From positions 318,001-382,000 of the forward strand of contig NZ_CP019980.1 in the NCBI RefSeq assembly GCF_002982115.1: DNA of 64,000 nucleotides. Reading direction: 5' to 3'. A program made the position numbers and the translations under genes. Shown piece after piece: positions 507-52,526 of this stretch. The notes beneath the pieces were generated by a model. The model was not told the DNA's origin. It did not search any database and saw nothing but the letters and a program-made list of their open reading frames with translations. Within the stretch, counting starts at the first letter, position 1, and each line of letters begins with the position of its first letter. This DNA comes from Lysinibacillus sphaericus (GTDB lineage: Bacteria > Bacillota > Bacilli > Bacillales_A > Planococcaceae).

Positions 507-1514
507 GTGAACTCTATTAAATTTATAAGCTTTAGAAAGATGGTCATGTTTTTAGTATTGTTATTTGCATTGGTGTTAGTCGGATGTGGAAATAAGGAAT
601 CTGAAGATGCTTCGAATGCGGATGACAATAATACAACGCAAGAAAGTAGTACTGAAAATAGCAGTCGAGAAGTTACACATTCCTTGGGTACAACAACAAT
701 CGAAGGGACACCTACGAAAATCGTTACGCTTTATCAAGGTGCTACGGATGTTGCTGTAGCGATGGGCATCAAACCTGTAGGAGTTGTAGAATCTTGGGCA
801 GATACACCATATTATGAGTATTTACAAAAGGACTTAGAAGGTATTCCTCTTTTAGGGGAAGAAACACAGCCTAACTTAGAGGAAATTGCAAAACTTCAGC
901 CGGATTTAATTATTGCTTCGAAAAATCGTCATGAGGAAATTTATGAACAATTATCACAAATCGCACCGACAGTTGTTCATCAAGATGTATTTGATTTTAA
1001 AGGGACAATCAATTTAATCGGAGAATCGACTGGTAAAGAAGATAAAGCAAAAGAATTACTTGCAGAATGGGAAAGTCGTGTAGCTGATTTCCAAACAAAA
1101 ATTAAAGATAAGCTAGGGGATAAATGGCCAATTAGTGCTTCGGTTGTCAATTTTAGAGCTGACCATGCACGTGTTTATCCAGCCGGTTATGCAGGTGAAA
1201 TTTTAACAGAGCTTGGCTTTAAAGGACCAAAAAATATAACGGAAAATCCGCTACCTATCGTTTTAAGGTTTACAGATAAAGAAAGCATTCCGCAAATGGA
1301 TGCAGATGTCATTTATATGTTTTATATCGAAGATGAAGCAACGAAAAAAACATTAGAAGAATGGACAAGCCATCCATTATGGAAAGAGCTTGAAGCGGTT
1401 AAAAATGACCAAGTATATCGTGTGGAAGAGGTGTACTGGAATTTTGCAGGTGGTATTTTAAGTGCACATATTATGTTGGATGATATTTATAACAGATTTG
1501 AGCTAGAAAAGTAA
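507..1514 (+). CDS. Ferric-siderophore ABC transporter, substrate-binding lipoprotein (YfmC/FecB-like)
   Basis: Extracytoplasmic receptor that captures a ferric siderophore and delivers it to the FecCD-type permeases encoded next. It has a signal peptide with lipobox LVGC (acylated Cys27), a low-complexity Ser/Asn/Glu linker to about residue 55, then a class-III periplasmic-binding fold: an early lobe around KIVTLYQGATDVAVAMG and the typical LEEIAKLQPDLIIASK segment. The GTG start follows GGAGGAAA. Its length (335 aa) is normal for the family. Control is by the Fur box just upstream. Position next to a citrate-type siderophore operon suggests it is the cognate receptor, resembling ferric-citrate-type YfmC; that ligand is inferred from context. 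Confidence 0.88.
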   Translation: MNSIKFISFRKMVMFLVLLFALVLVGCGNKESEDASNADDNNTTQESSTENSSREVTHSLGTTTIEGTPTKIVTLYQGATDVAVAMGIKPVGVVESWADTPYYEYLQKDLEGIPLLGEETQPNLEEIAKLQPDLIIASKNRHEEIYEQLSQIAPTVVHQDVFDFKGTINLIGESTGKEDKAKELLAEWESRVADFQTKIKDKLGDKWPISASVVNFRADHARVYPAGYAGEILTELGFKGPKNITENPLPIVLRFTDKESIPQMDADVIYMFYIEDEATKKTLEEWTSHPLWKELEAVKNDQVYRVEEVYWNFAGGILSAHIMLDDIYNRFELEK

Positions 1515-1689: not shown

Positions 1690-2706
1690 ATGCAAAATTT
1701 GCTTACCAGTACCTCAATGAAAAAAAGTGTCTTTATTATTTGTTGTGTGTTGCTGATAGTGGCATTTATGTTAAGTGTAGCTCTTGGTCAAACATCAATT
1801 CCATTTCGATTAGTGTATGATGCTTTTTTCAACTATGATGCATCAAATGCGGAGCATGTAATCATTCGGACATCTCGTTTCACTAGAGCTGTTGTTGCTA
1901 CTGTAGTTGGAGCAAGTCTTGCAATAGCAGGGGCTTTAATGCGTGCTTTGACGAGAAATCCTTTAGCCGCACCAGATATTTTAGGTGTTAACGCAGGCGC
2001 ATTATTTTTTATTGTTTGTGCAATTACATTTTTTTCTATGGACTCGTTAATCCATTATATGTGGGTTGCTTTTTTAGGAGCTGGTGTTGCGGGTGTTCTT
2101 GTGTTTTTCTTAGGGTCTTTAGGAAGAGACGGCTTAACGCCAATCAAAATTGTGCTAGCGGGTGCTGCTATTTCGGCATTATTTGTCTCATTTACACAGG
2201 GATTGTTGGTAATCGATGAGCAGGGCATACAAAGTGTGCTTTTTTGGCTTGCGGGTTCTGTTTCAGGGAGAGATTTGAATATGTTATTACCTGTATTACC
2301 ATTCATCGTAATAGGTAGCAGTGTGGCCTTTTTAATGGGGCGTTCCATCAATATTTTGCAGTCAGGAGATGATATTGCGAAAGGCTTAGGGCAACGCACG
2401 ATTTTAACAAAGGTTGTTATGGGTATTATTGTTATCTTGCTTGCTGGGGGATCAGTCGCAGTTGCTGGCTCCATTGGCTTTATCGGCTTAATCGTGCCTC
2501 ATATGGCGATGGGCTTAGTAGGTACAGATTACCGCTGGATAATTCCGTTTAGTGCAGTCATTGGTTCAACATTATTACTGTTGGCAGATATTGCAGCTCG
2601 CTTTGTGATTATGCCGTTAGAAATGCCCATCGGTGTTATGACAGCATTTATTGGTGCACCCTTCTTCATTTATATAGCGCGAAGGGGGTTAGCGAAAAAT
2701 GCATAA
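1690..2706 (+). CDS. Ferric-siderophore ABC transporter permease (FecCD family)
   Basis: Integral membrane subunit of the importer, with about nine to ten hydrophobic segments over 338 residues. The FecCD hallmark RNPLAAPDILGVNAGA lies near residues 88-103, and the C-terminal GSIGFIGLIVPH segment (about 257-268) includes the region that contacts the ATPase. It starts 175 bases after the receptor gene, behind a weak hairpin, and overlaps the next permease gene by 8 bases. Together the two permeases form the heterodimeric channel, as in YfmD/YfmE. Confidence 0.9.
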   Translation: MQNLLTSTSMKKSVFIICCVLLIVAFMLSVALGQTSIPFRLVYDAFFNYDASNAEHVIIRTSRFTRAVVATVVGASLAIAGALMRALTRNPLAAPDILGVNAGALFFIVCAITFFSMDSLIHYMWVAFLGAGVAGVLVFFLGSLGRDGLTPIKIVLAGAAISALFVSFTQGLLVIDEQGIQSVLFWLAGSVSGRDLNMLLPVLPFIVIGSSVAFLMGRSINILQSGDDIAKGLGQRTILTKVVMGIIVILLAGGSVAVAGSIGFIGLIVPHMAMGLVGTDYRWIIPFSAVIGSTLLLLADIAARFVIMPLEMPIGVMTAFIGAPFFIYIARRGLAKNA

Positions 2707-3739
2707 TTATATAACGGTAAGAACGAAATCAAATAAAATATCTTTTCAACTATCAAAAAAAGTAGCAATGGTTACTATCCTTCTTTGTATATTGCTATGC
2801 GGCATGATTATGCTTGCGCTTTCGGTAGGGAGTGATTTTATACATCCAGTGACTGTACTAAAGGAATTGTTTGGCTACGGTACAGGTGAATATCTATTTA
2901 CAATCCAAACGTTACGACTTCCTAGAGTATTACTTGCCGTGCTAGTTGGGATGGCGCTTGCTGTATCAGGGTTAATATTACAGGGCATTATTCGAAATCC
3001 TTTAGCTGCACCGGATATTATAGGTGTAACAAGTGGTGCATCAGTAGGTGCAATGTTATTTCTTACGTATGCAACGGTGAGCATACACTACTTACCATTA
3101 GCAGCCATTATAGGAGCGGGAGTAGTATCGGCTATTATCTATCTCTTGTCTTGGAATAAGGGTGTCACACCTATACGAATGGTGTTAATCGGTATTGGGA
3201 TTTCGGCACTTACGAAAGGGATAGTGACAATGCTAATTGTCATGGGTGAAGAAGTACGCACAACAAGAGCTTACATATGGCTTACAGGTAGTTTGTATGG
3301 GGCCAATATGCAGGATGTTTACTTATTACTCCCATGGGTGATTGTTTTAAGTATCTTCACTTTTGTCATGGCAAGAGTCATTAATGTAAAAGAATTAGGT
3401 GATGATGTTGCAGTAGGTGTAGGAGTTAAAGTACAAGTTTACCGAGTATTGTTCTTGTTGATTAGTGTTATGTTAGCTGGCACAGCCGTTGCCTTTGTAG
3501 GAGGAATAGCATTCGTCGGATTAGTAGCACCTCATATTAGTAGAATGCTGGTAGGCCGTTCATTTGCCGCACTTATTCCGATTTCTGCAATGGTCGGAGC
3601 CATTATCGTAATTTTTGCAGACATTGTTGGTCGTACACTATTTTTGCCAAAAGATTTACCAGCAGGTGTATTTACTGCTGCAATTGGTGCGCCATTTTTT
3701 ATTTATTTACTGTTCCGTACAAGAAATCAACATTCATAA
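2699..3739 (+). CDS. Ferric-siderophore ABC transporter permease (FecCD family)
   Basis: Second channel subunit, 346 residues, paralogous to the preceding gene. It carries the matching RNPLAAPDIIGVTSGAS motif (about 99-115) and a C-terminal GGIAFVGLVAPHISRMLVG segment. The N-terminus has a basic cytoplasmic stretch before the first membrane helix. Its ATG overlaps the previous stop region by 8 bases, so translational coupling is likely. It is followed after 86 bases by the ATPase gene. Confidence 0.9.
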   Translation: MHNYITVRTKSNKISFQLSKKVAMVTILLCILLCGMIMLALSVGSDFIHPVTVLKELFGYGTGEYLFTIQTLRLPRVLLAVLVGMALAVSGLILQGIIRNPLAAPDIIGVTSGASVGAMLFLTYATVSIHYLPLAAIIGAGVVSAIIYLLSWNKGVTPIRMVLIGIGISALTKGIVTMLIVMGEEVRTTRAYIWLTGSLYGANMQDVYLLLPWVIVLSIFTFVMARVINVKELGDDVAVGVGVKVQVYRVLFLLISVMLAGTAVAFVGGIAFVGLVAPHISRMLVGRSFAALIPISAMVGAIIVIFADIVGRTLFLPKDLPAGVFTAAIGAPFFIYLLFRTRNQHS

Positions 3740-3825: not shown

Positions 3826-4632
3826 TTGAATAATGTACTAGAGGCGAATGCATTAACAGTTACCTATGGGAATGCCAACATACTTGAGGATTTACATTTA
3901 CAAATACCAAAGGGGAAAATTACGGTTTTAGTTGGTGCAAATGGCTGTGGCAAGTCGACATTATTACGGACATTTGCACGCCTAATTAAACCGAAAGATG
4001 GACATGTATTATTAGACGGTGAAAAAATACGAGATTTGTCGACAAAAGCAGTTGCGAAACGATTAGCGATATTGCCACAAGGACCAATAGCGCCTGAAGG
4101 ATTAACAGTTTTACAATTGATTAAACAAGGTCGGTACCCGCATCAAAGCTGGATCAAGCAATGGTCAAAAGAAGACGAGCAGATTGTCAATCAAGCATTG
4201 GAAGCAACACAGATGACATCATTTGCGAATAGCCCTGTCAATGCATTATCTGGAGGTCAACGCCAGCGGGCATGGATTGCAATGACATTGGCACAAAAGA
4301 CAGACTTGATTTTATTGGATGAGCCAACGACCTACTTAGATATGGCACACCAAGTAGAAATTTTAGATTTATTGTTCGATTTAAATAGCAAAGAAAATCG
4401 TACGGTTGTTATGGTTTTGCATGACTTAAATTTAGCTTGTCGTTATGCCCATCATATCGTGGCAGTGCGCGATAAAAAAATTTATGCACAAGGAAGGCCA
4501 GAGGATATTATAACAATTGATTTAGTGAAGGATGTATTTGGCATGGGTTGCACGATTATGAACGATCCTCTTTTTGGCACACCTTTATGTGTACCGCATG
4601 GAAAGGGCATCAAGTGCTGTCTTAGAGCCTAA
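3826..4632 (+). CDS. Ferric-siderophore ABC transporter ATP-binding protein (FecE/YfmF-like)
   Basis: ATPase that powers the importer from the cytoplasm. It has Walker A GANGCGKST at residues 37-45, signature LSGGQRQRAW near 141-150, Walker B LILLDEPT near 161-168 and a switch His in MVLHDLN. Length (268 aa) is normal. The start is TTG after AGAGGTG; no better start lies nearby. The family is shared by ferric-citrate, hydroxamate and catecholate importers, so the ligand cannot be read from this subunit. Confidence 0.92.
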   Translation: MNNVLEANALTVTYGNANILEDLHLQIPKGKITVLVGANGCGKSTLLRTFARLIKPKDGHVLLDGEKIRDLSTKAVAKRLAILPQGPIAPEGLTVLQLIKQGRYPHQSWIKQWSKEDEQIVNQALEATQMTSFANSPVNALSGGQRQRAWIAMTLAQKTDLILLDEPTTYLDMAHQVEILDLLFDLNSKENRTVVMVLHDLNLACRYAHHIVAVRDKKIYAQGRPEDIITIDLVKDVFGMGCTIMNDPLFGTPLCVPHGKGIKCCLRA

Positions 4633-4647: not shown

Positions 4648-5424
4648 ATGTTACATGTACCGAATAATAACCGACTAACGCCGACAGATATTGCTATTCT
4701 AACAGAGAACTATCGTTTTACGGAGACAAATTTGCCTGCTTCGCCCTATTCAATTTCATCCAAGAATTTGCTGTGTGGAGAGCACTGTCGTCAATATCTA
4801 CAAACCATTTCGCCAATTTTTAATTCTACTTCTTTAATCACTACAGCTTCTTTATTCGGAAAGCGCTATAGCGTATTAACAATGGCGGCACCTCTGTTTG
4901 CTATGTCGATGCTCCAAAAGGGGATAAATGCGTCGATTGACAATGTTCGTGTGGAGTCAAGCTATCAGGAAGATTTATGGCTCCCAAAAATAGCATTGGT
5001 TGATGCACAAGTGTTTCTACCCATAAGCAGAGCGGAATGGAGAGATCAAATTCTCCAATCGTTATTTGCGGATAATATAACAAAGGTATGGAAGGCGCTG
5101 TCGACTACTGCTAAAGTTTCAAAAGCGGTTTTATGGGAGCATGCGGCTATGTATGTGCACTGGTTTTATGAAACGCAATTTCGCCAAGGGGCAAGTGAAA
5201 GGGAAATCGCCTTTTTAGAAGAAGACTATCAGTACATTATGACGGAAGCTCCAGGTGAAATTTTTGGCGAACGTAAAAATCCGTTTACGCGATATAATAC
5301 GCCAAAGGTTATGACTAGAGGCACCGACAAGCCTATAAGACTACGTAAAACTTGCTGTTATTATTATTTAACCTCTGAAGAAGAACATGATTATTGTATA
5401 TCATGCCCCAAAATGCCAACGTAA
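4648..5424 (+). CDS. FhuF-like [2Fe-2S] ferric-siderophore reductase
   Basis: Probably reduces or releases iron from the imported ferric siderophore in the cytoplasm. The C-terminus has four cysteines (236, 237, 250, 253) arranged C-C-x12-C-x2-C; E. coli FhuF uses C-C-x10-C-x2-C for its [2Fe-2S] cluster, so this is the same design with a slightly longer loop. The N-terminal body resembles the helical IucA/IucC C-terminal/FhuF-like fold. AGGAGG precedes the ATG, 15 bases after the ATPase gene, so it is the last gene of the importer operon. The family call is firm from the cysteine pattern and context; the exact substrate is inferred. Confidence 0.78.
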   Translation: MLHVPNNNRLTPTDIAILTENYRFTETNLPASPYSISSKNLLCGEHCRQYLQTISPIFNSTSLITTASLFGKRYSVLTMAAPLFAMSMLQKGINASIDNVRVESSYQEDLWLPKIALVDAQVFLPISRAEWRDQILQSLFADNITKVWKALSTTAKVSKAVLWEHAAMYVHWFYETQFRQGASEREIAFLEEDYQYIMTEAPGEIFGERKNPFTRYNTPKVMTRGTDKPIRLRKTCCYYYLTSEEEHDYCISCPKMPT

Positions 5425-5538: not shown

Positions 5539-5670
5539 AGCAAGTAAGCGTTGTAATCCCCAAATTCCTTGAATTTAACCATGCATTAATAGTAAGAGTT
5601 TTCTTTCCTCTCCTAAATTGTGGATTATTTTTTAACATTAACTTGTAAATTGAAGCATACATTGTTATTA

Positions 5671-5696
5671 TATAATTGATAATGATAATCGTTCTC
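5671..5696 (+). promoter_or_regulatory. -10 box plus Fur box of the siderophore biosynthesis operon
   Basis: TATAAT at 5671-5676 is followed by GATAATGATAATCGTTCTC at 5678-5696, which matches the 19-base Fur consensus at 17 positions. The -35 is weak (TTGAAG at 5650-5655 with a short spacer). The operon should be induced by iron limitation together with the importer upstream. Confidence 0.82.
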
Positions 5697-5723
5697 AATT
5701 ATTTTTCCGTGGGAGGAGTAGGT

Positions 5724-6728
5724 TTGACACAACAGCAAATAAGCAATTTACAAAATCAAATCATTATACAGAAAGCAAAGGAAATGGGCATAGTTTGTAC
5801 ACCATTACTTGCAGATTGTGAGGATTTTTTAGAGCTATCTTATAAAGACAAAACAGTTATTATCAATAAATCAAGGTCTCATCAGTTGTTGTTGATAAGC
5901 GGATTGTTAGCACAAAATAAGGAAGCAACAAACAAATTATTAGCAAGAAATAAACTACCTATTACCGATACGCTTATCGTAGAGGAAGTTGGAGAACCAG
6001 CTATTCAATTTTTAACAAACAATAAAACCGTTGTAGTGAAACCTATTAATGCTAAATGTAGTTTAGGTGTAACCATTGGCATTAAAACGCTAGAGCAATT
6101 AGAGCAAGCAGTGATAGTTGCTAAACAATATAGTCAAAAGATTATGCTTCAAAGATATGTAGTTGGACATGATTATCGCGTGTTAGTAATAGATGGTGAG
6201 ATGATTGGTGTTTTAGAATATCGATCAGCTTTTATAGAAGGTGACGGCTATTCGACTATTCGTCAATTGCTAGAGAATTTAAAAGATAAGCAATTGAAAA
6301 AAAACACGCTTGAGCCTGAAAATGATCAAGCAATCGAAGCGGAATCGATAGACTTGCAAAATATATTACATCGGAATGGGCTTACGCTTGATGATGTTTT
6401 AGTAAAGGGTCAACAAGTAGAGTTATTTGTGGATGACAATATGTTAGTAACGGACTTTTATGATGTTATAACAGATCGCACAGCAGATATTTGTCCTGAA
6501 AATATTGAGATGGCGATTCGTGCAGCCAAAGCATTGCAAATTGATGTGGCAGGCATCGACATTCGATGTTTACATATTGATAAACCGTTAGATCAAACAA
6601 ATGGCGTCATCCTAGAAGTAAATGCCTTGCCAGATTTGGTGGACCCCTCGAATTATTTTGCAAATAGTACTAAAAATGCAGCTGAATCATATTTAACCTA
6701 TCTATTAGAAATAGAAAAGGAGCAGTGA
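5724..6728 (+). CDS. ATP-grasp carboxylate-amine ligase of the siderophore operon (PvsA-like role)
   Basis: First gene of the biosynthetic operon. ATP-grasp enzymes join a carboxylate to an amine through an acyl-phosphate. Visible elements are the nucleotide-binding KTVVVKPINAKCSLGVTIG, the central LQRYVVGHDYRVLVIDGE and the metal-site EVNALPDLVDPSNY near the C-terminus, closest in style to the cyanophycin-synthetase/glutathione-synthetase group. The start is TTG with GGGAGGAG seven bases upstream; an apparent earlier start at 5676 would lie inside the Fur box. Length is 334 aa. Vibrioferrin assembly also needs an ATP-grasp enzyme (PvsA), but staphyloferrin B and achromobactin do not, so it may add an amino acid to the scaffold. 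Its substrate is unknown. Confidence 0.78.
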   Translation: MTQQQISNLQNQIIIQKAKEMGIVCTPLLADCEDFLELSYKDKTVIINKSRSHQLLLISGLLAQNKEATNKLLARNKLPITDTLIVEEVGEPAIQFLTNNKTVVVKPINAKCSLGVTIGIKTLEQLEQAVIVAKQYSQKIMLQRYVVGHDYRVLVIDGEMIGVLEYRSAFIEGDGYSTIRQLLENLKDKQLKKNTLEPENDQAIEAESIDLQNILHRNGLTLDDVLVKGQQVELFVDDNMLVTDFYDVITDRTADICPENIEMAIRAAKALQIDVAGIDIRCLHIDKPLDQTNGVILEVNALPDLVDPSNYFANSTKNAAESYLTYLLEIEKEQ

Positions 6729-6732
6729 CAAC

Positions 6733-8088
6733 ATGGCAACAGAGAATGTTCAAGAAGAATATTTGATGTTTCAAAGGGAGCGTGAATCAAATGCACGAGC
6801 ATATTCACGGCATTTCCCATTTGTTTTACAAAAAGCACAAGGTGTAGTTGTGACAGATGTAGCAGGCAAACAGTATTATGATTGTTTAGCTGGAGCGGGT
6901 ACATTGGCCTTAGGGCATAATCATGATGTCATCATAGCAGCTATCAGGGAAGTATTGGATCAACAAATACCACTTCATACATTGGATTTAGCAACACCGT
7001 TAAAAATAGAATTTATGAAAGAAATCTTCTCGGCATTGCCAGCGGAAATGAAACATACCGCAAAAATACAATTTTGTGGCCCCACTGGCGCAGATGCGGT
7101 CGAAGCGGCTATTAAATTAGTGAAACATTCTACAAAAGGCAAATCTATTTTAGCTTTTCAAGGGGGATATCATGGCTCCACACAAGCAACGATGTCCATG
7201 AGCGGTAATTTATCTAAAAAACAGCATTTGCAAAGCTTACTGCCAGATGTACATTTTCTACCTTTCCCTTATGAATTTAGATGCCCATTTGGTGTGGGAA
7301 ATGGTATGACTGCAACGATTAGTGCACAATATATCGAACATTTATTGGATGATTGTGAAAGTGGTGTAGCTAATCCATGCTGTGTAATTGTAGAAACGGT
7401 GCAAGGAGAGGGAGGTGTTATTCCAGCGGATGTAATTTGGCTACAGCAATTGCGAAAAATAACTGCAGAACGAAATATCCCATTAATTATTGACGAAGTA
7501 CAAGCAGGGATAGGGAGGACTGGGAAGATGTTTTCATTTGAGCATGCGGGCATTATTCCAGATGTAATTATATGCTCAAAAGCGATTGGTGGTAGTTTGC
7601 CAATGTCTGTCGTCATTTATCAGGAAGCTTTAGATCAATGGCAGGCAGGTGCGCATACAGGCACTTTCCGAGGAAATCAATTAGCAATGGCGACGGGATT
7701 AGCAACATTAAAATATGTGCGCGAACAGCGTGTATTGCAAAATGTTGAAGAAAGAAGTGCTCAATTTTTTGAAGGGTTGCAACAATTGCGACGATTGTAC
7801 AGTGAAATTGGCGATGTGCGTGGAAGAGGATTAATGATAGGTGTAGAAATTGTTAATCCTAATAAGTCGTTCGATCGTCTTGGACACTATCCTCCAGATG
7901 GCGAATTAGCCGCTATGATTCAGAAAAGATGCTTTGAAAATGGATTAATTATTGAAGTGGGTGGACGTAAGGGGGCAGTACTAAGATTTTTACCACCTCT
8001 TATCATCAATAAAACTGAAACCGAAAAAGTATTAGATATATTTGCCGAGTCTGTACAACAAGCGGTTGAGCTGTATGCATTATGTTAA
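6733..8088 (+). CDS. L-2,4-diaminobutyrate:2-oxoglutarate aminotransferase
   Basis: Class-III, fold-type-I PLP aminotransferase of 451 residues that should make L-2,4-diaminobutyrate from aspartate semialdehyde with glutamate as amino donor. It shows the family's FCGPTGADAVEAAIKLVKH, GGYHGSTQATMSMSG, IDEVQAGIGRTGKMF and the PLP-lysine segment CSKAIGGSLP (Lys283). Relatives include RhbA (rhizobactin) and AcsF (achromobactin). EctB is the alternative, but no ectoine genes accompany it. It starts four bases after the ATP-grasp gene with AAGGAG in front, and overlaps the exporter gene by 7 bases. Its presence in place of sbnA/sbnB points to diaminobutyrate, not diaminopropionate, as the diamine block. 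Confidence 0.87.
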   Translation: MATENVQEEYLMFQRERESNARAYSRHFPFVLQKAQGVVVTDVAGKQYYDCLAGAGTLALGHNHDVIIAAIREVLDQQIPLHTLDLATPLKIEFMKEIFSALPAEMKHTAKIQFCGPTGADAVEAAIKLVKHSTKGKSILAFQGGYHGSTQATMSMSGNLSKKQHLQSLLPDVHFLPFPYEFRCPFGVGNGMTATISAQYIEHLLDDCESGVANPCCVIVETVQGEGGVIPADVIWLQQLRKITAERNIPLIIDEVQAGIGRTGKMFSFEHAGIIPDVIICSKAIGGSLPMSVVIYQEALDQWQAGAHTGTFRGNQLAMATGLATLKYVREQRVLQNVEERSAQFFEGLQQLRRLYSEIGDVRGRGLMIGVEIVNPNKSFDRLGHYPPDGELAAMIQKRCFENGLIIEVGGRKGAVLRFLPPLIINKTETEKVLDIFAESVQQAVELYALC

Positions 8089-9494
8089 ACATTCAAGCTA
8101 TGAAGAAACATTCAGCCTTACTTGCCGTTTTTATCGCTGCCTTTTCACTCGTACTTACAAATAGTTCCTTTAATATTTTATTACCGAGCTTTATGCAGCT
8201 ATATGGCATTAGTGCAAGTTCGGCAGGTTGGGTCATTTTGGCATATCTCTTGTCAATGACCATTACTATGCCTCTCACACCATTAGTCGTAGACCGCTTA
8301 GGTAGGAAAAGGGCGTATATTGCGGGTGTTGCAATATACGGACTTTCTTCTATCATAGGTGGATTATTCGATCAATATGTTCAAGTGGTGTTGATTGTCC
8401 GCAGTCTTCATGGCATTGCAGGTGGCATAATGATTCCACTATCCCTTAGTTTATTGTTTGATGTTTACGAGAAAGAAGTACATGGACGAGTGGCGGGGAT
8501 TTGGGGAATACAGCTAACAGTAGCGTCTATTATTGGTCCAACTGTTGGAGGGCTTATTATTCAATTTGGTCAATTACAATATCTATTTTGGCTGAATGTT
8601 CCTTTTGCCATCGTATCGTTATGTCTATGTGCTACTCAAATTAATTCATATCAAGTTATGCGCAAAAAAGAGATGGATTTGTTTGGCATTATTTACATGG
8701 TACTAAGTATTTTAATGCTAAGTGTCAGCATTCAACTGTTTCTAAAGCAGGTTCTTCCTACGTGGCTAGTAGTCATGATGCTAGTAGGTGGTTTGCTTTT
8801 ATTAATTCGATTTATTCAGTTAGAAAATAAGAAAATCGAACCGCTATTAAATTATAAGTTATTACAACGTAAAACAATCTTCGCCATCACAGTGCTAATT
8901 GCTGCAATACAAGATGTCGTGATGCTTGGGGCAGTTTTTGTATTGCCCCTACTATTTCAGGAAGTATATCAACTCCCGTCTTCCGCGGTAGGTGCGATGT
9001 TCATTCCGACAGCCATTTTTACAAGTTTGTTTATGTGGTTGGGAGGACATTGGATGGATAAAGGGAAATCTAAAAATTTTATAGTAGTCGGCATCGTGAT
9101 TGTCGCCATATCTATTATATCCTTTTCTTTTTTACCAAAGTCTGTATCCATATTCGTATTGATTTTGTTGATGATTGGCAGGGGGATAGGTGGAGGTCTT
9201 TCGAATATGACTGTCACAACAATTGGTCTTCATACACTTTCACAAGAGGAGTTACACGAAGGCTCAGCTTTAGCTAGTACGATTGAACGCTTTTCTTCGT
9301 CGTTTGCAGTCATGTTATTAACGATTTATTATGACTTCAGATGGAGCATGTTAATAAATGCAGGTCTTTCCGTAGCAGACGCAAAATGGATGGCAATCAA
9401 AGAAGAATGTGTGATTTTAGGGAGCATCATGTTGGTTACTGTTCCTTTTGTATTATATATAACAAGAAAGAGAGTTGACATTGGTGTTCATTAA
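8082..9494 (+). CDS. MFS exporter of the siderophore operon (SbnD/YhcA-like)
   Basis: Multi-pass major-facilitator protein, 470 residues, likely exporting the finished siderophore. It has about 12-14 hydrophobic segments, a loop-2/3 motif of the form DRLGRKR (about residues 70-76) and the antiporter-type GIWGIQLTVASIIGPTVGG in segment 5, placing it in the EmrB/QacA-like drug:H+ antiporter group. The start overlaps the aminotransferase stop by 7 bases; an internal ATG at 8100 is an alternative. The same kind of exporter is embedded in sbn and acs operons, which supports the role. Confidence 0.85.
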   Translation: MLNIQAMKKHSALLAVFIAAFSLVLTNSSFNILLPSFMQLYGISASSAGWVILAYLLSMTITMPLTPLVVDRLGRKRAYIAGVAIYGLSSIIGGLFDQYVQVVLIVRSLHGIAGGIMIPLSLSLLFDVYEKEVHGRVAGIWGIQLTVASIIGPTVGGLIIQFGQLQYLFWLNVPFAIVSLCLCATQINSYQVMRKKEMDLFGIIYMVLSILMLSVSIQLFLKQVLPTWLVVMMLVGGLLLLIRFIQLENKKIEPLLNYKLLQRKTIFAITVLIAAIQDVVMLGAVFVLPLLFQEVYQLPSSAVGAMFIPTAIFTSLFMWLGGHWMDKGKSKNFIVVGIVIVAISIISFSFLPKSVSIFVLILLMIGRGIGGGLSNMTVTTIGLHTLSQEELHEGSALASTIERFSSSFAVMLLTIYYDFRWSMLINAGLSVADAKWMAIKEECVILGSIMLVTVPFVLYITRKRVDIGVH

Positions 9495-11178
9495 AGAAGG
9501 AGCTTTGCAAAGTCATCATGAAAAGCAAGCCGCTATTTATAGTTGTAAAGTGTTGTTAAATTGTTATTTGCGAGAATGCTGTGAAGATCAAAGAAAGCTA
9601 TTGAAGGTTAATAGGCAGGATCATACATTTTCTCTACATTTTCAAGCAAGTCACGAAACGATTATTGGCAAGTTTACTTTTTATTCGCCGAATGGTGAGC
9701 ATGAATATGCATATTTTTTCTTGCAAAATGGCCAAGCTTTAACCTTGACCTTCCTTGCTTCATTAATTGTTCAGGAATACTTGCAACACAATAAAGCCAT
9801 CACACATGACCATGTACAAAATTTTATAGCTAGAGTGGAAAATAGCTATCAAAACATGGCTGTATTTTTGAAACATGCGACAAGCAGCCTTATTAACGAC
9901 TACTTGTCTTCTGAACAATCACTCCTATATGGTCATCCTTTCCATCCATATCCCAAAAACACGGTGGGCTTTACATCACAGGAAGTAGCGACCTATTGCC
10001 CAGAATTACGTACTTCATTTCCGCTTTGTTACCTTGCTGTTCGATATGACATCTTTCAAGAAACGTGGGTTACTGAAAGTGCAGCACATGAATTTTTGCA
10101 AAAGTTTGAATACGATATTCGCCAGCAATTAAAATTTGATGATGATAATTATCGCATATTGCCGATGCATCCTTGGCAATATGCTTATGTGCAAACATTA
10201 GAGGCAGTGCAAAAATTTGAAAGACAACAAAAAATAAGATTTTTGGGAAGTAGCGGTCCTGTTTGTTATCCAACATCATCTGTTCGAACAGTCTATATTC
10301 CACAATTTAAATGTAATTTGAAGTTGTCTCTGTCAATTCAAATTACCAATATGCTTAGGATTAATAGCCAAGAGCAAATGACAAGAACTCTAGATGCGGC
10401 GCATTATTTGTTAGCACATGATTGTTTTGTAGAAGAGCACTATACAAAGGTTCTGTATGAAACAGGTGTCTGTACGTGCCGTTTTGAAGAGGAAGCATTA
10501 ACAGCTTTATTTACGATGGCTTATCGACCAATGGTGCTAGACGAAAAATCAACCTATGTTGTTGCTAGTTTAGTAGAAGCGCCCATTCAAGGGAAGCCTT
10601 GTCGACTTTATGATTGGTTGAAAGGACAGAATGTAGAGCAATGGTTTCGACAATATATAACGATTTCTTTATTGCCAATTGTTAGACTCGCGGATAAAAA
10701 GGGCATTCACTTTGAAGCGCATTTACAAAATACGCTTATAACGCTTCGGGATGGTAAACCACATATTTTTTGGATACGGGATTTAGAAGGCGTAAGTATC
10801 GAACAAGAAAAAGTAGCTACACATAGACAAGCACAGGGACCCTTGTTTTATGAAAAAGAACAGGCGTGGTCAAGGACAAAATATTATTTCATGGTAAATC
10901 ATCTAGGGTCATTTATACATGCGCTTGCAAGAGATTTTCAGTTAAGCGAAGCTCATTTTTGGCAAATTGTACGAGAAATGCTACTTGAAGAATGGGAACA
11001 AACACAGAATGAGCTAGTAGCCCATCTGTTAACGACATCTGTATTTTATGCTAAGAAAAATTTGTATAGCTGTTTAATTGGCAAAAGTGAAATACCAGAA
11101 TATGTTGCAGTTAAAAATGCTTTGTATAAGGGGAATGAATTGTATGAAATTGATGACAGCTTTCATGCCAGTAAGTGA
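9475..11178 (+). CDS. NIS siderophore synthetase (IucA/IucC family), copy 1
   Basis: ATP-dependent ligase that adenylates a citrate-type carboxylate and couples it to an amine or alcohol. Family marks: GHPFHPYPKNTVGF (about 165-178), MHPWQ (231-235), the ATP-contacting TSSVR, KLSLSIQITNM, EAHLQN and RDLEGV. It ends with the IucA/IucC C-terminal FhuF-like domain. Length is 567 aa, slightly short for the family. Translation begins inside the exporter's end; TTG 9475, TTG 9481 or GTG 9484 are all possible. Its position just after the MFS gene equals that of SbnE in staphyloferrin B loci, but substrate type (A, B or C) cannot be settled by eye. Confidence 0.88.
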   Translation: MTLVFIKEGALQSHHEKQAAIYSCKVLLNCYLRECCEDQRKLLKVNRQDHTFSLHFQASHETIIGKFTFYSPNGEHEYAYFFLQNGQALTLTFLASLIVQEYLQHNKAITHDHVQNFIARVENSYQNMAVFLKHATSSLINDYLSSEQSLLYGHPFHPYPKNTVGFTSQEVATYCPELRTSFPLCYLAVRYDIFQETWVTESAAHEFLQKFEYDIRQQLKFDDDNYRILPMHPWQYAYVQTLEAVQKFERQQKIRFLGSSGPVCYPTSSVRTVYIPQFKCNLKLSLSIQITNMLRINSQEQMTRTLDAAHYLLAHDCFVEEHYTKVLYETGVCTCRFEEEALTALFTMAYRPMVLDEKSTYVVASLVEAPIQGKPCRLYDWLKGQNVEQWFRQYITISLLPIVRLADKKGIHFEAHLQNTLITLRDGKPHIFWIRDLEGVSIEQEKVATHRQAQGPLFYEKEQAWSRTKYYFMVNHLGSFIHALARDFQLSEAHFWQIVREMLLEEWEQTQNELVAHLLTTSVFYAKKNLYSCLIGKSEIPEYVAVKNALYKGNELYEIDDSFHASK

Positions 11179-12937
11179 AGCATCCTATAAGACAGTACAG
11201 GAGAGATTGAAGTGCCAAACATTAGAGGCATTGCTTTTTGAAGAAATTATTCCAGTAACGAAAAATGGAAAATATTATAGCTTCCAAGGACAAAATGTTC
11301 AAGGAGAGGCGGTCCTTTATACATGTGAAGTAGTAGAAAAATGGTCATTCGGTCGAGTGAAAGTGAAACCGAATTCCATTCAAAGAGACGGAGATGCCAA
11401 TGTAAGTATCTATACTTTTCTGGAAGAAGTCGTTCAGCAGACGTTAGACGGTCAGCATACAAAGACATTTGTTCAGGAGTTATTGGAGACCTTTGTGAAG
11501 GATAGTCAGGCAAAGAGCAATCAGCCACCGTCTATACCGGCAGAGGATTTGCACTATGAGGCGTTGGAAAGCCACATGATTGATGGTCATCCGTATCATC
11601 CAAGCTATAAATCCCGAGTTGGTTTTACTTTGGCAGATAATCATTTGTATGGTCCTGAATTTAATCAGGATATAGCGTTAACTTGGCTTGCTGTTCGTCG
11701 GCATTTTGTAGATATTGCCGTATTAGAACCAACTGCAATCAATAAGATGTATCAGCATCATTTACAGCCAGAGGAGTTAGCACATTTTACACAACAATTA
11801 CGAGCGCAAATAGATGAAGATGAACAAGCTTATGTTTTTCTCCCCGTTCATCCGTGGCAATTTGAACATATTATAGCGACCGTATTTTACCCACAAATCG
11901 CTGATAAGACGATTATTATATTAGGGAAATCGGAAAGCTCATATCGAGCACAGCAATCCATTCGCTCGTTATCAAATCGCCATAGTGCACAAGCGAGTTA
12001 TTTAAAATTACCTCTTAGCATTACAAATACATCTACTAGCCGTATTTTAGCGCATCATACGACACAAAATGCGCCTATTATTAGCGCTTGGCTAGATCGA
12101 GTTATTAAAAGTGATGAATACTTAAAAAATTGCCAGTTTGAAATTTTAAAAGAGACAATCGGGGTATCTTTCCGCTATCAAAAATTATCTGTTATCCAAT
12201 ATGCAGTGGCTTATGGAACATTAGGCGTCATCCATCGAGAAAATATTGCGCAATATTTGCAAGAGGATGAACAAGCGTGGCCATTAAATGCATTGATGCA
12301 TAAGCAAAAAAATGGCGAGGCGTTTATTCAGCAGGCGATTGCATTGTATGGGGTAGAAAAATGGAGCCGAGCCTTAATCGAAACGCTTGTAACGCCAATT
12401 GTTCATTTACTCTATGTCCACGGAATTGCGTTAGAATCTCATGCGCAAAATATTATTCTCGTATTAAAAAATAATTTTCCGCATCGAATCATTATTAAGG
12501 ACTTACATGATGGTGTGAGGTTTTGTTCTTCAGAGCTCCTTCATCCGGAATGGGAGCCAAAGTTAAATCCAGAGCCAGCCACACATCGACAATTTAATCG
12601 GTATTCATTTTTAAAAACAGCTAAAGTTTCAGAAGTAAGAGATTATACATTCGATGCTTTCTTCTTTATCTGTATGACTGAACTTTGTTTTACGCTTGAG
12701 GAATTTGGATTGCGGGAAGAGGATTTTTGGCGCACCTGTACGGAAGTTATTTTAGCTTATCAGCAACAACATCCTCAATATAAAGACCGTTTTCAAACGT
12801 TTGATTTATTTGCAGCGGATGCTTTAATCGAGGAAATGACAAAAAGACGTATTTATGGTGATCAAACATTGTATTTTAGAAAGGCTCAAAATCCTTTACT
12901 ACAGGCATTGGAGTTTTTGAAAAATGAAGAGAAATAA
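11144..12937 (+). CDS. NIS siderophore synthetase (IucA/IucC family), copy 2
   Basis: Second synthetase, 597 residues from ATG 11144, chosen because AAGGGG lies ten bases upstream; the frame stays open back to 11078. It overlaps copy 1 by 35 bases. Family marks: DGHPYHPSYKSRVGF, LPVHPWQFEHII, QQSIRSLSNR (ATP site), YLKLPLSITNTSTSRIL, ESHAQN and KDLHDGVRF. The LPLSITN/SRIL pattern is typical of enzymes acting on citrate-derived intermediates. By gene order it corresponds to SbnF. It is followed by the citrate-synthase-like gene, overlapping it by 14 bases. Confidence 0.89.
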   Translation: MKLMTAFMPVSEASYKTVQERLKCQTLEALLFEEIIPVTKNGKYYSFQGQNVQGEAVLYTCEVVEKWSFGRVKVKPNSIQRDGDANVSIYTFLEEVVQQTLDGQHTKTFVQELLETFVKDSQAKSNQPPSIPAEDLHYEALESHMIDGHPYHPSYKSRVGFTLADNHLYGPEFNQDIALTWLAVRRHFVDIAVLEPTAINKMYQHHLQPEELAHFTQQLRAQIDEDEQAYVFLPVHPWQFEHIIATVFYPQIADKTIIILGKSESSYRAQQSIRSLSNRHSAQASYLKLPLSITNTSTSRILAHHTTQNAPIISAWLDRVIKSDEYLKNCQFEILKETIGVSFRYQKLSVIQYAVAYGTLGVIHRENIAQYLQEDEQAWPLNALMHKQKNGEAFIQQAIALYGVEKWSRALIETLVTPIVHLLYVHGIALESHAQNIILVLKNNFPHRIIIKDLHDGVRFCSSELLHPEWEPKLNPEPATHRQFNRYSFLKTAKVSEVRDYTFDAFFFICMTELCFTLEEFGLREEDFWRTCTEVILAYQQQHPQYKDRFQTFDLFAADALIEEMTKRRIYGDQTLYFRKAQNPLLQALEFLKNEEK

Positions 12938-13706
12938 GTTGAAGGACAAAATAAAACGTCATCAAACGGTATATGGGTTATTTGTTTCGATTCCTCATCC
13001 TAGTGTAATCGAATTAATTGGTCACGCTGAATTTGATTTTGTCATTATTGATTTAGAGCACACGACAATTGATTTAGAAATATTGGAAAATATGATTCGT
13101 GCGGCAGAGCTACTCGAGATAACCCCACTTGTAAGAATTGCAGAAATAGATCGTACTTCAATCTTAAAAGTATTGGATTGTGGGGCACAGGGTATTGTCA
13201 TTCCACATGTAAGTTGCAAAGAGCAAGTCAAACAGGTTATTGAGTATAGTTATTATCATCCGATTGGGCATCGGAGTTTGAATAGTGGCCGCCCTGCAGC
13301 TTTTGCCAAAGAACCTTTAACTGAGTATATTGCTGCAGCCAATGAAGAAATTATGATGATTCCAATGATTGAAAGCATAGAAGGCATTCGTAATTGTAAG
13401 GATATTTTATCACTACCACAAATCGGATTTGTTTTGGAAGGAGCGGCAGATTTATCGCAATCATTAGCCGTACCTTGGCAAATTGAACATCCCCAAGTGC
13501 AGAATGCGATCGAAGCGTTATATGACATTGTAAAAACATGCCATATACCGTATGCGACTGTTTCAAGAGAGATGCATCAGCATCGACGATATGCTGACAA
13601 AGGTGTACGCATCTTTGTGTTAGGGGATGACCGAAATACAGCGTTTCGAGCATATCGACAAAAGAAAATGGACTATCAAAATATAACAGGAGGCCAATAT
13701 GAGTGA
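12924..13706 (+). CDS. SbnG/AcsB-like HpcH/HpaI-family citrate synthase
   Basis: Cytoplasmic TIM-barrel enzyme of 260 residues related to class-II metal aldolases. S. aureus SbnG makes citrate from oxaloacetate and acetyl-CoA for staphyloferrin B, independent of the TCA cycle. Visible: DLEHTTID with His46, PLVR with Arg71, PMIES with probable metal ligand Glu150, and EGAADLSQSLAVPWQ with Asp176, which is very SbnG-like. It overlaps copy 2 of the synthetases by 14 bases and the decarboxylase by 8. In-operon citrate supply means the siderophore can be made when aconitase/TCA flux is altered by iron starvation. Aldolase activity remains a formal alternative. Confidence 0.86.
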   Translation: MKRNKLKDKIKRHQTVYGLFVSIPHPSVIELIGHAEFDFVIIDLEHTTIDLEILENMIRAAELLEITPLVRIAEIDRTSILKVLDCGAQGIVIPHVSCKEQVKQVIEYSYYHPIGHRSLNSGRPAAFAKEPLTEYIAAANEEIMMIPMIESIEGIRNCKDILSLPQIGFVLEGAADLSQSLAVPWQIEHPQVQNAIEALYDIVKTCHIPYATVSREMHQHRRYADKGVRIFVLGDDRNTAFRAYRQKKMDYQNITGGQYE

Positions 13707-14916
13707 TTCGTTACTAGCTGTTATTCAGTCATTAAATACTAATAAAACAGCGCCTGTTTGTGCTTATATTTACGACTTAGATGGTATTCAAGCACATGTA
13801 AACCGAATGCTTGAAACTTTGCCAAAGCAAATATTTTTGTTTTATGCGATTAAAGCAAATCCTGATCAACGAATCATTAAGGCCCTTTTACCATATGTTC
13901 GTGGCTTTGAAGTTGCTTCTATCGGAGAATTAGTAAATGTGCGTGCAGTGTCTGAGGATGTACCAATCTTATTTGGCGGACCTGGAAAAAAGGATGCCGA
14001 ATTGGAGATGGCTATACGCCAAAAGGTCTCATATATTCATGTTGAAAGTTTATTAGAATTACGACGTATTCAAATGCTCGCACAAAAGTTAAATAAAAAG
14101 GTCGATATTTTATTACGCATAAATTTACGTACAAATGCACTTCCTGAAACAAAAATTACGATGGGAGGTACTGCGAGTCCATTTGGCTTGGACGAGTCAG
14201 ATATTCAACAAGCGGTGGCACTTGTACGACAAGACCCACTACAGCTTGTACAAATTAAAGGTTTCCATTTTCACTCATTATCGAATAATGTGCATGCATC
14301 ATTGCATGTAGAAATGGTACGACTTTATGTGCAAAAAGCACTTGACTGGCAACGCTTGTATCAATTAGATGTGAAAGTACTGAATGCCGGAGGTGGATTT
14401 GGTGTTTCCTATAATGAAAATGAAGAACCATCTTTTAACTGGCAACAATTTATGTCCTCATTACAAGCTAGTGATATTTTGCAGGATTTAAATGGCATCC
14501 AACTCTTTTTTGAGCCAGGGAGATTTCTTGTTGCTGATTATGGCTTTTATGCTACAGAAATACTAGATATTAAACAGTCCCATCAACAGTATTTTGCCGT
14601 TGTAAGAGGTGGCACACATCATAATAGATTGCCAGCCTCATGGGGACATAATCAACCATTTCAGCTTTATGCTAGTGAAACGTGGACATATCCATTCCAA
14701 CGACCTAGCTTGCACAATAAGAAGGTCCATCTAGTTGGGGAATTATGCACGCCAAAGGATCGATTGCATACAGATGCTTTTATGTCTTCCGTTCGTGTAG
14801 GTGATATTGTCATCTTTGAAAAATCAGGTGCATATTGTTGGACAATTTCACATCATGATTTTCTGGGTCATCCTCATCCAGCATTTTATTATATCCAAGG
14901 AGGCCATATTCAATGA
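13699..14916 (+). CDS. SbnH/AcsE-like PLP-dependent decarboxylase
   Basis: Fold-type-III (alanine-racemase-like) PLP decarboxylase, 405 residues, related to SbnH, AcsE, PvsE and meso-diaminopimelate decarboxylase. PLP lysine Lys52 is in FYAIKANPD; a glycine-rich phosphate loop GGGFGVSY, FEPGRFLVAD, and the partner-subunit ELCTPKD and GAYCWTISHHDFLGHPHP follow. In known NIS pathways this enzyme decarboxylates a citryl-amino-acid intermediate, leaving an amine (ethylenediamine from diaminopropionate; ethanolamine from serine). AGGAGG precedes the ATG. Its partner synthetase is probably the next gene. Confidence 0.88.
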   Translation: MSDSLLAVIQSLNTNKTAPVCAYIYDLDGIQAHVNRMLETLPKQIFLFYAIKANPDQRIIKALLPYVRGFEVASIGELVNVRAVSEDVPILFGGPGKKDAELEMAIRQKVSYIHVESLLELRRIQMLAQKLNKKVDILLRINLRTNALPETKITMGGTASPFGLDESDIQQAVALVRQDPLQLVQIKGFHFHSLSNNVHASLHVEMVRLYVQKALDWQRLYQLDVKVLNAGGGFGVSYNENEEPSFNWQQFMSSLQASDILQDLNGIQLFFEPGRFLVADYGFYATEILDIKQSHQQYFAVVRGGTHHNRLPASWGHNQPFQLYASETWTYPFQRPSLHNKKVHLVGELCTPKDRLHTDAFMSSVRVGDIVIFEKSGAYCWTISHHDFLGHPHPAFYYIQGGHIQ

Positions 14917-16736
14917 TTGTACAGCAAAGTGTATCAGCAAGAGAAAGAGCTACAGAAATTATTAAGAAGGACTTAATGGATGCATTTTTAGTCGAGCAGT
15001 TCTTTGACGGAGATACGTATTCAAAGCAATCTCTTCAAGATGCAGCGAAAGAAATAAGTGCTTTATTTGCCCATTACCATTCGCATGAAGTAGAGGTCTA
15101 CATAGGAAACTTTTGTTTTCTTGTTGAAAAAAGCTATAAGCAGGGTGAGCAATGGGTGCGTCATTCTCCTATTTATCGACAAGTGGCTGGACAGTGGCAG
15201 TTAATCGTGTCAATTGAAGAGCTTGCCACATCCATTTTGCAGACTAGTCTCTCTGCCAAAGCCTGTCAGCATCCAGCAGTGGCAGATTTTTTAAAGGGGC
15301 TACTAGTAGCTGTTGAGCAATTAACATTGAGTATAGAACAAATGAATAATTATGATGCATCAGCTCCTCAAACACCATACCAATGGCATGTCAAAGGAGA
15401 GCTGATTGCCTCGTTTCGAGATCGGCCATTTCATCCGCTTGCGAAAGCTAAAATTGGACTTTCAGCGCAAGATTATCAACAATATATGGCGGAATTTGGT
15501 CAACCCATCTCACTTCGTTGGGTCGCCATTCGTCATGATGTGGTAGTAAAAGGGAATGAGCAAACACCCATCCAATGTTTTGATTTACTTGAGGAAAAAC
15601 AAAAGTATGAGATAGCGCAAGAATTTGAACGACGAGGTTTACGGCAAAGTGAGTACACGATGATGCCTGTGCATCCATGGCAGTTACAAAACATTATTTT
15701 AAAAGATTTTGAGCAGGAACTAGCCGATGGAATGATTGTTATATTAACAGCAAAAGCAGGCGATTTATGTGCGACTTCATCCTTACGTTCTTTAGCATTT
15801 AATCAACCGTCTAGCAGGATGCTAAAACTACCAGTAAGTGTACTTTCTTTAGGTGCATCGAGATATTTGCCTGTTGTTAAGTTGTTAAATGGTCTAGCAG
15901 GTGAAAAGTTGCTGCGACAAGCCATTTCTTGCGACCCTATATTAACGGAAAAGGTTATTTTATGTGAGGAACAAAATTGGTGGGGGTATATGCCTGAAAC
16001 GATGGGGCTGTTTGATGACCATCCCCGTCATCTAGCGGCGCAAATACGCATTTATCCAAAGCAGCTTTTAGATGCGAACTATAAAATCATTCCGATGTCA
16101 TCTTTAGCCGTAAATTTAAAGGGTCATCATTATTTAGATGAACTCTTCGGCCAAACTTTAACAAAACAGCAAGTAATAGATTTTTATACAGAAATGGTAA
16201 CGATGTTTTATGAAATTGCCATGAGGTTATTCAAAGTAGGGGTTTTGCCTGAAATACATGGTCAAAATTGCTGTCTGGTATTAAAGAATAATCAAATCCA
16301 TCGTTTATTGTTCAGAGACCATGACTCAGTTCGTCTTCATATGCCTTATTTAGAACGCCATCATATTCAAGATCCGCAATATTATATTCGACCAGGTTAT
16401 TCCAATAGCTTATATAATGAAAGTGTGGAGAAGCTGATTTTTTATATTCAATCATTAGGGACACAAGTAAATTTAGCTTCCATTATGGAGGCACTTGCAC
16501 AAGTATATTCTATTTCTGAGCGAACTTTATGGTATACGACGAAGCAGGCGTTAATGAAGGCTGTAACAGTTGTTGATATTCCAGCAGCAGATAAAGTAAG
16601 GTTATGGAAAGTTTTATTTGAGCAAAAACAATGGCCAGTAAAACTGATTATTCGACCGCTGTTAGAGGCGGATGGTGTGCCAGGAGCGATGCCTTCTGGA
16701 AAAGGGCAAGGGTATAATCCATTTTGGAATTTATAA
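14913..16736 (+). CDS. NIS siderophore synthetase (IucA/IucC family), copy 3
   Basis: Third synthetase, 607 residues, overlapping the decarboxylase by an ATGA and preceded by AAGGAGG. Marks: DRPFHPLAKAKIGLS, MPVHPWQLQNII, TSSLRSLAF (ATP site), MLKLPVSVLSLGASRYL, EIHGQN and RDHDSVRLH. It is the most divergent of the three. By adjacency to the SbnH/AcsE-type decarboxylase it could correspond to AcsD (acs loci place acsD beside acsE) or to SbnC, which has no other counterpart here. It is the last gene of the operon: the next gene has its own promoter. Confidence 0.88.
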   Translation: MIVQQSVSARERATEIIKKDLMDAFLVEQFFDGDTYSKQSLQDAAKEISALFAHYHSHEVEVYIGNFCFLVEKSYKQGEQWVRHSPIYRQVAGQWQLIVSIEELATSILQTSLSAKACQHPAVADFLKGLLVAVEQLTLSIEQMNNYDASAPQTPYQWHVKGELIASFRDRPFHPLAKAKIGLSAQDYQQYMAEFGQPISLRWVAIRHDVVVKGNEQTPIQCFDLLEEKQKYEIAQEFERRGLRQSEYTMMPVHPWQLQNIILKDFEQELADGMIVILTAKAGDLCATSSLRSLAFNQPSSRMLKLPVSVLSLGASRYLPVVKLLNGLAGEKLLRQAISCDPILTEKVILCEEQNWWGYMPETMGLFDDHPRHLAAQIRIYPKQLLDANYKIIPMSSLAVNLKGHHYLDELFGQTLTKQQVIDFYTEMVTMFYEIAMRLFKVGVLPEIHGQNCCLVLKNNQIHRLLFRDHDSVRLHMPYLERHHIQDPQYYIRPGYSNSLYNESVEKLIFYIQSLGTQVNLASIMEALAQVYSISERTLWYTTKQALMKAVTVVDIPAADKVRLWKVLFEQKQWPVKLIIRPLLEADGVPGAMPSGKGQGYNPFWNL

Positions 16737-16793
16737 AGTGCATTTTATTGCTGAAAATTGGTTGAGGTTTTGCATATTCTCCTACGATTGGGT

Positions 16794-16821
16794 ACATTTT
16801 GACAATAAGTTGCATAGAATA
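16794..16821 (+). promoter_or_regulatory. Putative sigma-K (late mother-cell) promoter
   Basis: An ACA at 16794-16796 and CATAGAATA at 16813-16821 are 16 bases apart, matching the sigma-K pattern AC / CATAnnnTA. It lies 30 bases before the Tyr-rich cupin gene. Seen by eye only; no sigma-A pair with proper spacing is evident. Confidence 0.45.
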
Positions 16822-16850
16822 ATTTTAGAATCTGTGAGAGGATTGAGAAA

Positions 16851-52519: not shown

Positions 52520-52526
52520 ATGAAAT

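Follow-up and report, generated by a model that had tools for sequence, protein, structure and literature searches.

A Fur-boxed operon of Lysinibacillus sphaericus with a predicted hybrid pathway for a diaminobutyrate-citrate siderophore and a free-standing ATP-grasp ligase

What would an operon make whose genes resemble those of several siderophore systems at once, and which diamino acid would it use? Both questions are raised by a 64,000-nucleotide stretch of the Lysinibacillus sphaericus genome (assembly GCF_002982115.1, contig NZ_CP019980.1, positions 318,001 to 382,000), referred to here as the window. A single run of eight open reading frames (ORFs) on the plus strand, positions 5724-16736, encodes an ATP-grasp ligase, a predicted L-2,4-diaminobutyrate (Dab) aminotransferase (Dat), a major facilitator superfamily (MFS) protein, an SbnG-like protein, an SbnH-like decarboxylase and three synthetases of the nonribosomal peptide synthetase-independent siderophore (NIS) kind, NisA, NisC and NisB (Table 1). 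A preliminary description had reported eight mostly overlapping genes of these families behind a Fur box, and all of the ORFs, the domains and the Fur box were found. Neighboring ORFs overlap at six of seven junctions (by 7, 20, about 35, 14, 8 and 4 bp); the sole non-overlapping junction, between the ATP-grasp gene and dat, is a 4-bp gap. The window holds four Fur-box matches versus 0.07 expected, and the three synthetases are the only IucA/IucC matches in the 4.68-Mb, one-contig genome. With a probability of roughly two in three, we predict that this Fur-repressed operon makes and exports a Dab-citrate carboxylate siderophore, which a cassette directly upstream would re-import.

The proposed route is built on staphyloferrin B. 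There, SbnE and SbnF each add L-2,3-diaminopropionate (Dap) to citrate, SbnH decarboxylates the first Dap adduct and SbnC attaches 2-oxoglutarate, according to the cited part of PMC3179956. In L. sphaericus, the SbnG-like protein would supply citrate and Dat would supply L-Dab, along with 2-oxoglutarate from glutamate. NisA is predicted to condense citrate with L-Dab, the SbnH-like enzyme to convert citryl-Dab to citryl-1,3-diaminopropane, and NisC to place L-Dab on the other citrate arm. NisB would then attach 2-oxoglutarate once or twice, the ATP-grasp enzyme would form one further amide bond, adding a residue, and the MFS pump would export the product. Replacing Dap by Dab in the staphyloferrin B scheme gives a predicted core that is its Dab homologue, C18H28N4O11 (476.175; [M+H]+ 477.1827). 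Achromobactin holds two 2-oxoglutarates, so NisB may act twice; the second would add C5H4O4 (128.011) to give C23H32N4O15, with [M+H]+ of about 605.194. ATP-grasp enzymes form amide bonds via carboxylate activation.

We compared 76 loci, each a stretch of about 20 kb (genes farther off would escape): the window, a locus of L. mangiferihumi M-GX18 (L024) that was the one found in a NisA scan of genome contigs, 70 further stretches and four records from a plasmid collection. In a class sample of 398 genomes, 88 matched NisA at 1e-40. Comparison at locus level covered 63 of these 88 (60 fetched, plus the window, G055 and G112) and 12 of 27 matches from the family search (10 fetched, plus the window and G039, represented by L024). 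Genes for the two diamino acids proved mutually exclusive: 37 loci carry dat, 28 carry sbnA and/or sbnB for Dap, none carries both and 11 carry neither. The SbnI gene occurs in 25 of the 28 sbnA/B loci and in none of the other 48. The dat loci comprise 20 from Bacillota with an SbnH-like gene, 12 of schizokinen type (a label assigned here from gene content, meaning a hydroxylase and no SbnH), two of achromobactin type and three without SbnH or hydroxylase.

The L. sphaericus genome itself conforms to the Dab set. It has no SbnB match, and its SbnA-like proteins, at 28-38% identity only, are presumably cysteine-synthase relatives. Nothing close to dat was found in the genome besides dat itself; the second-best match is 32% identical (3.3e-50) and others are 27-36%. 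Dat passes one curated Dab aminotransferase model (Table 1) and falls below the cut-off of a second diaminobutyrate transaminase model, NF005386 (606.3 versus 753 bits). Dab or 1,3-diaminopropane had been named as the building block in the preliminary description. Dab is favored, and 1,3-diaminopropane would be made in place from citryl-Dab, a free precursor being less likely. A source of the free compound is conceivable, as the genome encodes one decarboxylase with 28% identity to the Dab decarboxylase found in a schizokinen-type locus.

Other gene combinations were seen among the compared loci. Three (L069, L070 and L072) combine dat and an RraA-like gene with synthetases resembling SbnE, SbnF and SbnC; no SbnH-like decarboxylase was detected in them, and they perhaps specify a further Dab-citrate siderophore made without decarboxylation. 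The sbnA/B loci L037, L071, L077 and L075 each have two SbnF-like synthetases; no SbnC-like synthetase was detected in the stretches of the first three, which suggests products other than staphyloferrin B. RraA-family genes also occur in NIS loci of different phyla (L027, 16622-17239; L035, 16944-17579; L036, 14445-15062).

Trees of the individual enzymes point to a mixed ancestry. All are unrooted and only their splits were used. Those of NisA (32 rows) and SbnH (26 rows) come from the first 33 loci, and those of NisB (23 rows) and NisC (25 rows) from 25 of the 76 loci, hand-picked to thin near-copies; from the latter two, proteins under 430 aa were dropped, and the NisB of L064 (in two pieces) and the Sodalis NisC were left out of their respective trees. 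In the NisA tree, 15 dat rows and L068 form one branch (support 100/100) among the sbnA/B rows, with AcsD-like, schizokinen-type and baumannoferrin-type rows outside it. The two AcsD-like rows, 23-27% identical to NisA, sit on a separate long branch (100/100). The SbnH tree likewise places 12 dat rows and L068 on one branch (98/99) among sbnA/B rows, and the Sodalis AcsE-like row is a long branch. NisB and NisC group differently, with sbnA/B rows on one side and dat, achromobactin-type and baumannoferrin-type rows on the other (97/97 and 100/99; Thalassospira alone represents the achromobactin type for NisC). Long branches were flagged for the baumannoferrin-type row and one sbnA/B row in the NisA tree, for Sodalis in the SbnH tree, and for the baumannoferrin-type row and L081 in the NisB tree.

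Because the two pairs of trees group differently, the operon is, judged by its sequences, a real chimera: the predicted enzymes of the first condensation and the decarboxylation belong with staphyloferrin B, and those predicted to add the second diamino acid and 2-oxoglutarate belong with achromobactin and baumannoferrin. The trees thus bear out the initial suggestion that staphyloferrin-B-type and achromobactin-type genes are mixed here; the citrate-based NIS pathway and the Dab aminotransferase, suggested at the same time, are likewise supported. Achromobactin contains Dab (PMC3179956), and baumannoferrin is composed of citrate, 1,3-diaminopropane, Dab, decenoate and 2-oxoglutarate (PMC10483418); on these partial accounts, both members of known product in the NisB/NisC group contain Dab.

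Potentially bearing on how Dab is accommodated, the decarboxylase keeps all five residues described near the citryl group of SbnH, R304, S308, W309, K347 and H379 (PMC7857480). We aligned 53 decarboxylases, 29 from sbnA/B loci, 20 from Bacillota dat loci, two of achromobactin type and two from loci with neither gene set. The first four residues are kept in all 20 Bacillota dat rows and H379 in 17, the other three having gaps; both achromobactin-type rows have Ala-Gln in place of Ser-Trp at 308-309. Two substitutions beside these residues mark the dat rows. Glu replaces SbnH Q342 in 20/20 of them, 0/29 sbnA/B rows and 0/2 achromobactin-type rows; for Gly in place of Q310 the counts are 20/20, 1/29 and 1/2, respectively. 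By alignment to SbnH, both positions adjoin the 3-10 helix and the cysteine loop, reported as SbnH specificity determinants in the cited part of PMC7857480. In our reading, a side chain smaller than Gln would suit a longer substrate. Since the dat and sbnA/B rows form two clades, they can be expected to differ at other positions too, and eight further columns elsewhere in the protein do tell them apart; what argues for a function of Q342 and Q310 is therefore their location alone.

Among NCBIfam models, the ATP-grasp protein comes closest to cyanophycin synthetase (176.6 bits, cut-off 877), followed by N-acetylglutaminylglutamine synthetase (123.7, cut-off 569) and GshAB (115.7, cut-off 425); in the PDB it matches a cyanophycin synthase (4e-32). 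Unlike the ATP-grasp domains of those enzymes, it stands alone at 334 aa and scores 116-177 bits against cut-offs of 425-877. Across 18 such proteins, 39-97% identical to the one in the window, K106-P107 and EVNALPD (298-304) are invariant, which we take to be as expected of an active ATP-grasp enzyme.

An ATP-grasp gene together with dat and the NIS/SbnG/SbnH-like set occurs in 18 of the 76 loci: four from Lysinibacillus, 11 from genus g44 and one each from g55, g83 and g73. The preliminary description had called the product new to its group; in the sense of a feature private to it this does not hold, the gene set spanning three Bacillota families (f1, f3 and f19). In all 18 the ATP-grasp gene lies immediately 5' of dat, and 17 keep the order ATP-grasp, dat, MFS, NisA, NisC, SbnG, SbnH, NisB; in L066, the sole exception, the MFS gene was not detected. 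Of the 20 Bacillota loci that combine dat with an SbnH-like gene, 18 have the ATP-grasp gene; none of the 28 sbnA/B loci does. In 16 of the 18, the 350 bp upstream of the ATP-grasp match contain a Fur box with at most two mismatches, compared with 1-4.5% of same-length random windows. Within the genus, the family search found NisA at 80% identity or more in 4 of 32 genomes, own included, and the ATP-grasp protein at 84% or more in the same four. The other 23 of the 27 family NisA matches are 54% (G200), 36% (G172) or less identical, and the other 18 family ATP-grasp matches are 25-30% identical stretches within GshF-sized ORFs of 761-775 aa. In the class sample, NisA matches 45-55% identical came from G341, G331, G600, G344, G462 and others of genus g44. 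The plasmid collection held no close relative of the ATP-grasp protein (25-35% among the matches listed) or of NisC (best 42%).

Several known products might be made instead. Authentic staphyloferrin B, known from sbn loci of Staphylococcus and Ralstonia, would require L-Dap from elsewhere and another purpose for dat, and we consider it highly improbable. The operon shares with sbn its MFS-E-F-G-H block order, SbnE- and SbnH-type enzymes that are the closest relatives of NisA and the decarboxylase, and the predicted use of citrate, a diamino acid twice and 2-oxoglutarate (compare the scheme in PMC3179956). Yet dat replaces sbnA and sbnB, sbnI is absent, the sbnC-like gene comes last, an ATP-grasp gene is added, and NisB and NisC lie on the branch of the Dab systems. 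They also score far under the curated SbnC and SbnF models (430.8 bits, cut-off 700, and 490.1 bits, cut-off 900), whereas SbnC of the sbn-type locus L079, used as a control, reaches 996.2 bits. Given the missing Dap genes and these cut-offs, we rejected staphyloferrin B. Quite unlikely, if less so, is an achromobactin operon in which NisA joins citrate to L-serine, the decarboxylase yields O-citryl-ethanolamine, Dab and two 2-oxoglutarates are added, and the ATP-grasp gene is incidental. The achromobactin-type (acs/cbr) records, Sodalis pSG1 and Thalassospira pCSC3H3, do have dat, MFS and AcsC/B/A-like genes, an uptake cassette and an FhuF-domain protein. All of the biosynthesis genes except the ATP-grasp gene, and five uptake genes, are matched in the Sodalis locus, where the AcsF-type Dab aminotransferase is 49% identical to Dat; in the trees, NisB and NisC side with the achromobactin and baumannoferrin types. 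Against plain achromobactin, which we likewise rejected, NisA is not AcsD-like and groups with SbnE-like rows, and the decarboxylase has the SbnH residues at 308-309 and not those of AcsE; further differences are the extra ATP-grasp gene and the fact that no TonB-dependent receptor is expected in a Gram-positive organism.

A hydroxamate of the schizokinen or baumannoferrin kind was rejected as well. One query each for an IucD-type hydroxylase and a GNAT acetyltransferase, taken from a schizokinen-type locus, had no match at 1e-8 in positions 1-20000 of the window, in line with the absence noted in the preliminary description; the hydroxylase query was positive in 13 other loci. The baumannoferrin (bfn) locus of Acinetobacter baumannii, the unannotated record L036, resembles the operon in its predicted building blocks citrate, 1,3-diaminopropane, Dab and 2-oxoglutarate (PMC10483418) and in the grouping of NisB and NisC, but it has IucD- and GNAT-like genes, its product bears decenoate, and its NisA-like protein groups with schizokinen-type ones. 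A different kind of alternative accepts the proposed core and has the ATP-grasp enzyme act off the scaffold, for instance on a precursor or during processing of the complex after import. Two loci, L027 and L083, keep dat, three synthetases, SbnG and SbnH with no ATP-grasp match in their genomes at 1e-20. Still, the constant position of the gene before dat and its absence from sbnA/B loci favor a step in this pathway, and we rate an off-scaffold role as unlikely. Returning to the Dab-citrate siderophore, we extend it, as a possible but tentative proposal, to a Bacillota hybrid class. Its NIS core of citrate, 1,3-diaminopropane, Dab and 2-oxoglutarate would have a staphyloferrin-B-type front and an achromobactin-type back, an amino acid would be added by the free-standing cyanophycin/glutathione-synthetase-like ATP-grasp enzyme, and the SbnH Q342 to Glu and Q310 to Gly changes would mark a switch from Dap to Dab.

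A number of observations weigh against these proposals. A single genus contributes 11 of the 18 ATP-grasp loci, and the SbnH changes and gene content are inherited inside one clade, so that locus counts are not independent events. L068 (genome G462) belongs to that clade and carries both SbnH changes, but neither dat (E<=1e-80) nor an ATP-grasp gene (1e-20) was found in its genome, and its stretch has no sbnA/B; the link between clade and Dab is therefore not absolute. One achromobactin-type row also has Gly at Q310. L027 and L083, two of the 20 dat- and sbnH-bearing loci of Bacillota, indicate that a core without the ATP-grasp step should be viable, although L027 may have lost the gene, as it groups with the ATP-grasp-bearing L064 in the NisA and NisC trees. 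Two of the 18 ATP-grasp loci, L084 and L090, have no Fur box within the 350 bp. We labeled comparison records as achromobactin or baumannoferrin from gene content and organism, and NIS synthetases can be promiscuous.

The presence of vibrioferrin genes, also part of the preliminary description, finds no support: the ATP-grasp protein best matches cyanophycin- and glutathione-synthetase-type models, all below their cut-offs. PvsA is an ATP-grasp enzyme too, and the link to vibrioferrin consists in this shared superfamily. To our knowledge, and in the parts of the sources cited next, pvs has two NIS synthetases and neither dat nor an SbnG-like gene, unlike the operon here. The likeness lies in NIS synthetases, a pyridoxal phosphate (PLP)-dependent decarboxylase, an exporter and pvsA in one operon; the cited parts of two reviews give PvsA an ester-forming role, called untested in one (PMC5577590, PMC6836290), and PMC4431377 offers an indirect hint that it is an ATP-grasp enzyme.

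No description of such an operon or product, nor of a NIS, ATP-grasp and IucA combination, was found in the open-access papers searched; most subscription papers lie outside them, so a published match is possible. The predicted siderophore and the ligase role are thus without counterpart in the literature searched. Lysinibacillus is a genus studied for plant growth promotion, and VFDB matches to 'achromobactin biosynthesis and transport' were reported for L. irui (PMC11166776), with no analysis of a gene cluster in the cited part. The choice of one diamino acid over another in siderophore systems has been called an intriguing biological question (PMC3179956). Related operons fall into two sets, one with sbnA/B for Dap and the other with dat for Dab, and candidate specificity residues accompany this split, so the question can be put to the test one enzyme at a time.

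Table 1. Uptake and biosynthesis features at the siderophore locus (window positions; NIS synthetases are of the IucA/IucC family).
Feature	Position	Strand	Predicted role and evidence
Two overlapping Fur boxes before uptake operon	448-466, 454-472		2 and 0 mismatches
Siderophore-binding lipoprotein, ATP-binding cassette (ABC) transporter	507..1514	+	41% to Sodalis pSG1 binding protein
FecCD-type permease 1	1690..2706	+	51% to Sodalis
FecCD-type permease 2	2699..3739	+	48% to Sodalis
ABC transporter ATPase	3826..4632	+	60% to Sodalis
FhuF / IucC-C-terminal-domain protein	4648..5424	+	33% to Sodalis 'IucA/IucC family C-terminal-domain containing protein'
Fur box, biosynthesis operon	5678-5696		GATAATGATAATCGTTCTC, 2 mismatches
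ATP-grasp ligase, RimK-type (Pfam)	5724..6728	+	334 aa; K106, E298, N300 invariant in 18-member alignment
dat, predicted L-2,4-diaminobutyrate aminotransferase (class III)	6733..8088	+	NF005393, 710.8 bits (cut-off 671)
DHA2-type MFS protein	8082..9494	+	Predicted exporter; domain and family matches
NisA, SbnE-like NIS synthetase	9475..11178	+	Predicted citrate + first Dab; family match, tree
NisC, SbnF/AcsC-like NIS synthetase	11144..12937	+	Predicted second Dab; family match, tree
SbnG/AcsB-like HpcH/HpaI aldolase-type protein	12924..13706	+	Predicted citrate synthase; 48% to L028 and Sodalis copies
SbnH-like Orn/DAP-type PLP decarboxylase	13699..14916	+	Predicted citryl-Dab to citryl-1,3-diaminopropane; tree, pocket residues
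NisB, SbnC/AcsA-like NIS synthetase	14913..16736	+	Predicted 2-oxoglutarate ligation; family match, tree

Two gene starts in Table 1 differ from those of the longest ORFs. The ATP-grasp ORF is longest from 5676; this start would coincide with the Fur box, and the TTG at 5724, 3' of a GGAGGAG stretch, is most likely the true one. For NisC, the ATG at 11144 is favored over the listed ORF start at 11078 because the homologue in L026 aligns from residue 23. At 0.38, the operon hardly differs in GC content from the window as a whole (0.375), giving no compositional sign of recent import.

The five uptake genes at 507-5424, on which the preliminary description was silent, have counterparts adjoining the achromobactin-type cluster of Sodalis pSG1. 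All 13 uptake and biosynthesis genes are matched in three close loci of the same genus, L024 (L. mangiferihumi M-GX18), L025 and L026. The four ABC transporter genes precede the ATP-grasp operon in 15 of the 18 loci, and an FhuF-domain gene was detected in six; the FhuF-domain protein of the window is perhaps a candidate for iron release.

Directly 3' of the operon is a gene that appears cupin-like by eye (16851-17414). It is kept in L024, L025 and L026, and none was detected in the remaining 14 ATP-grasp loci. A second iron-uptake set, with a Fur box at 51486-51504 (1 mismatch), occupies 49109-56230. Besides an AraC-type regulator, its products are a binding protein, a pair of permeases, an ATPase and an esterase-like protein, the last similar by eye to siderophore hydrolases. 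Two transposase ORFs, 37008-37856 (-) and 50421-51269 (+), encode identical proteins of 282 aa, IS3-like by eye; the latter separates the AraC-type regulator from the uptake genes behind the Fur box.

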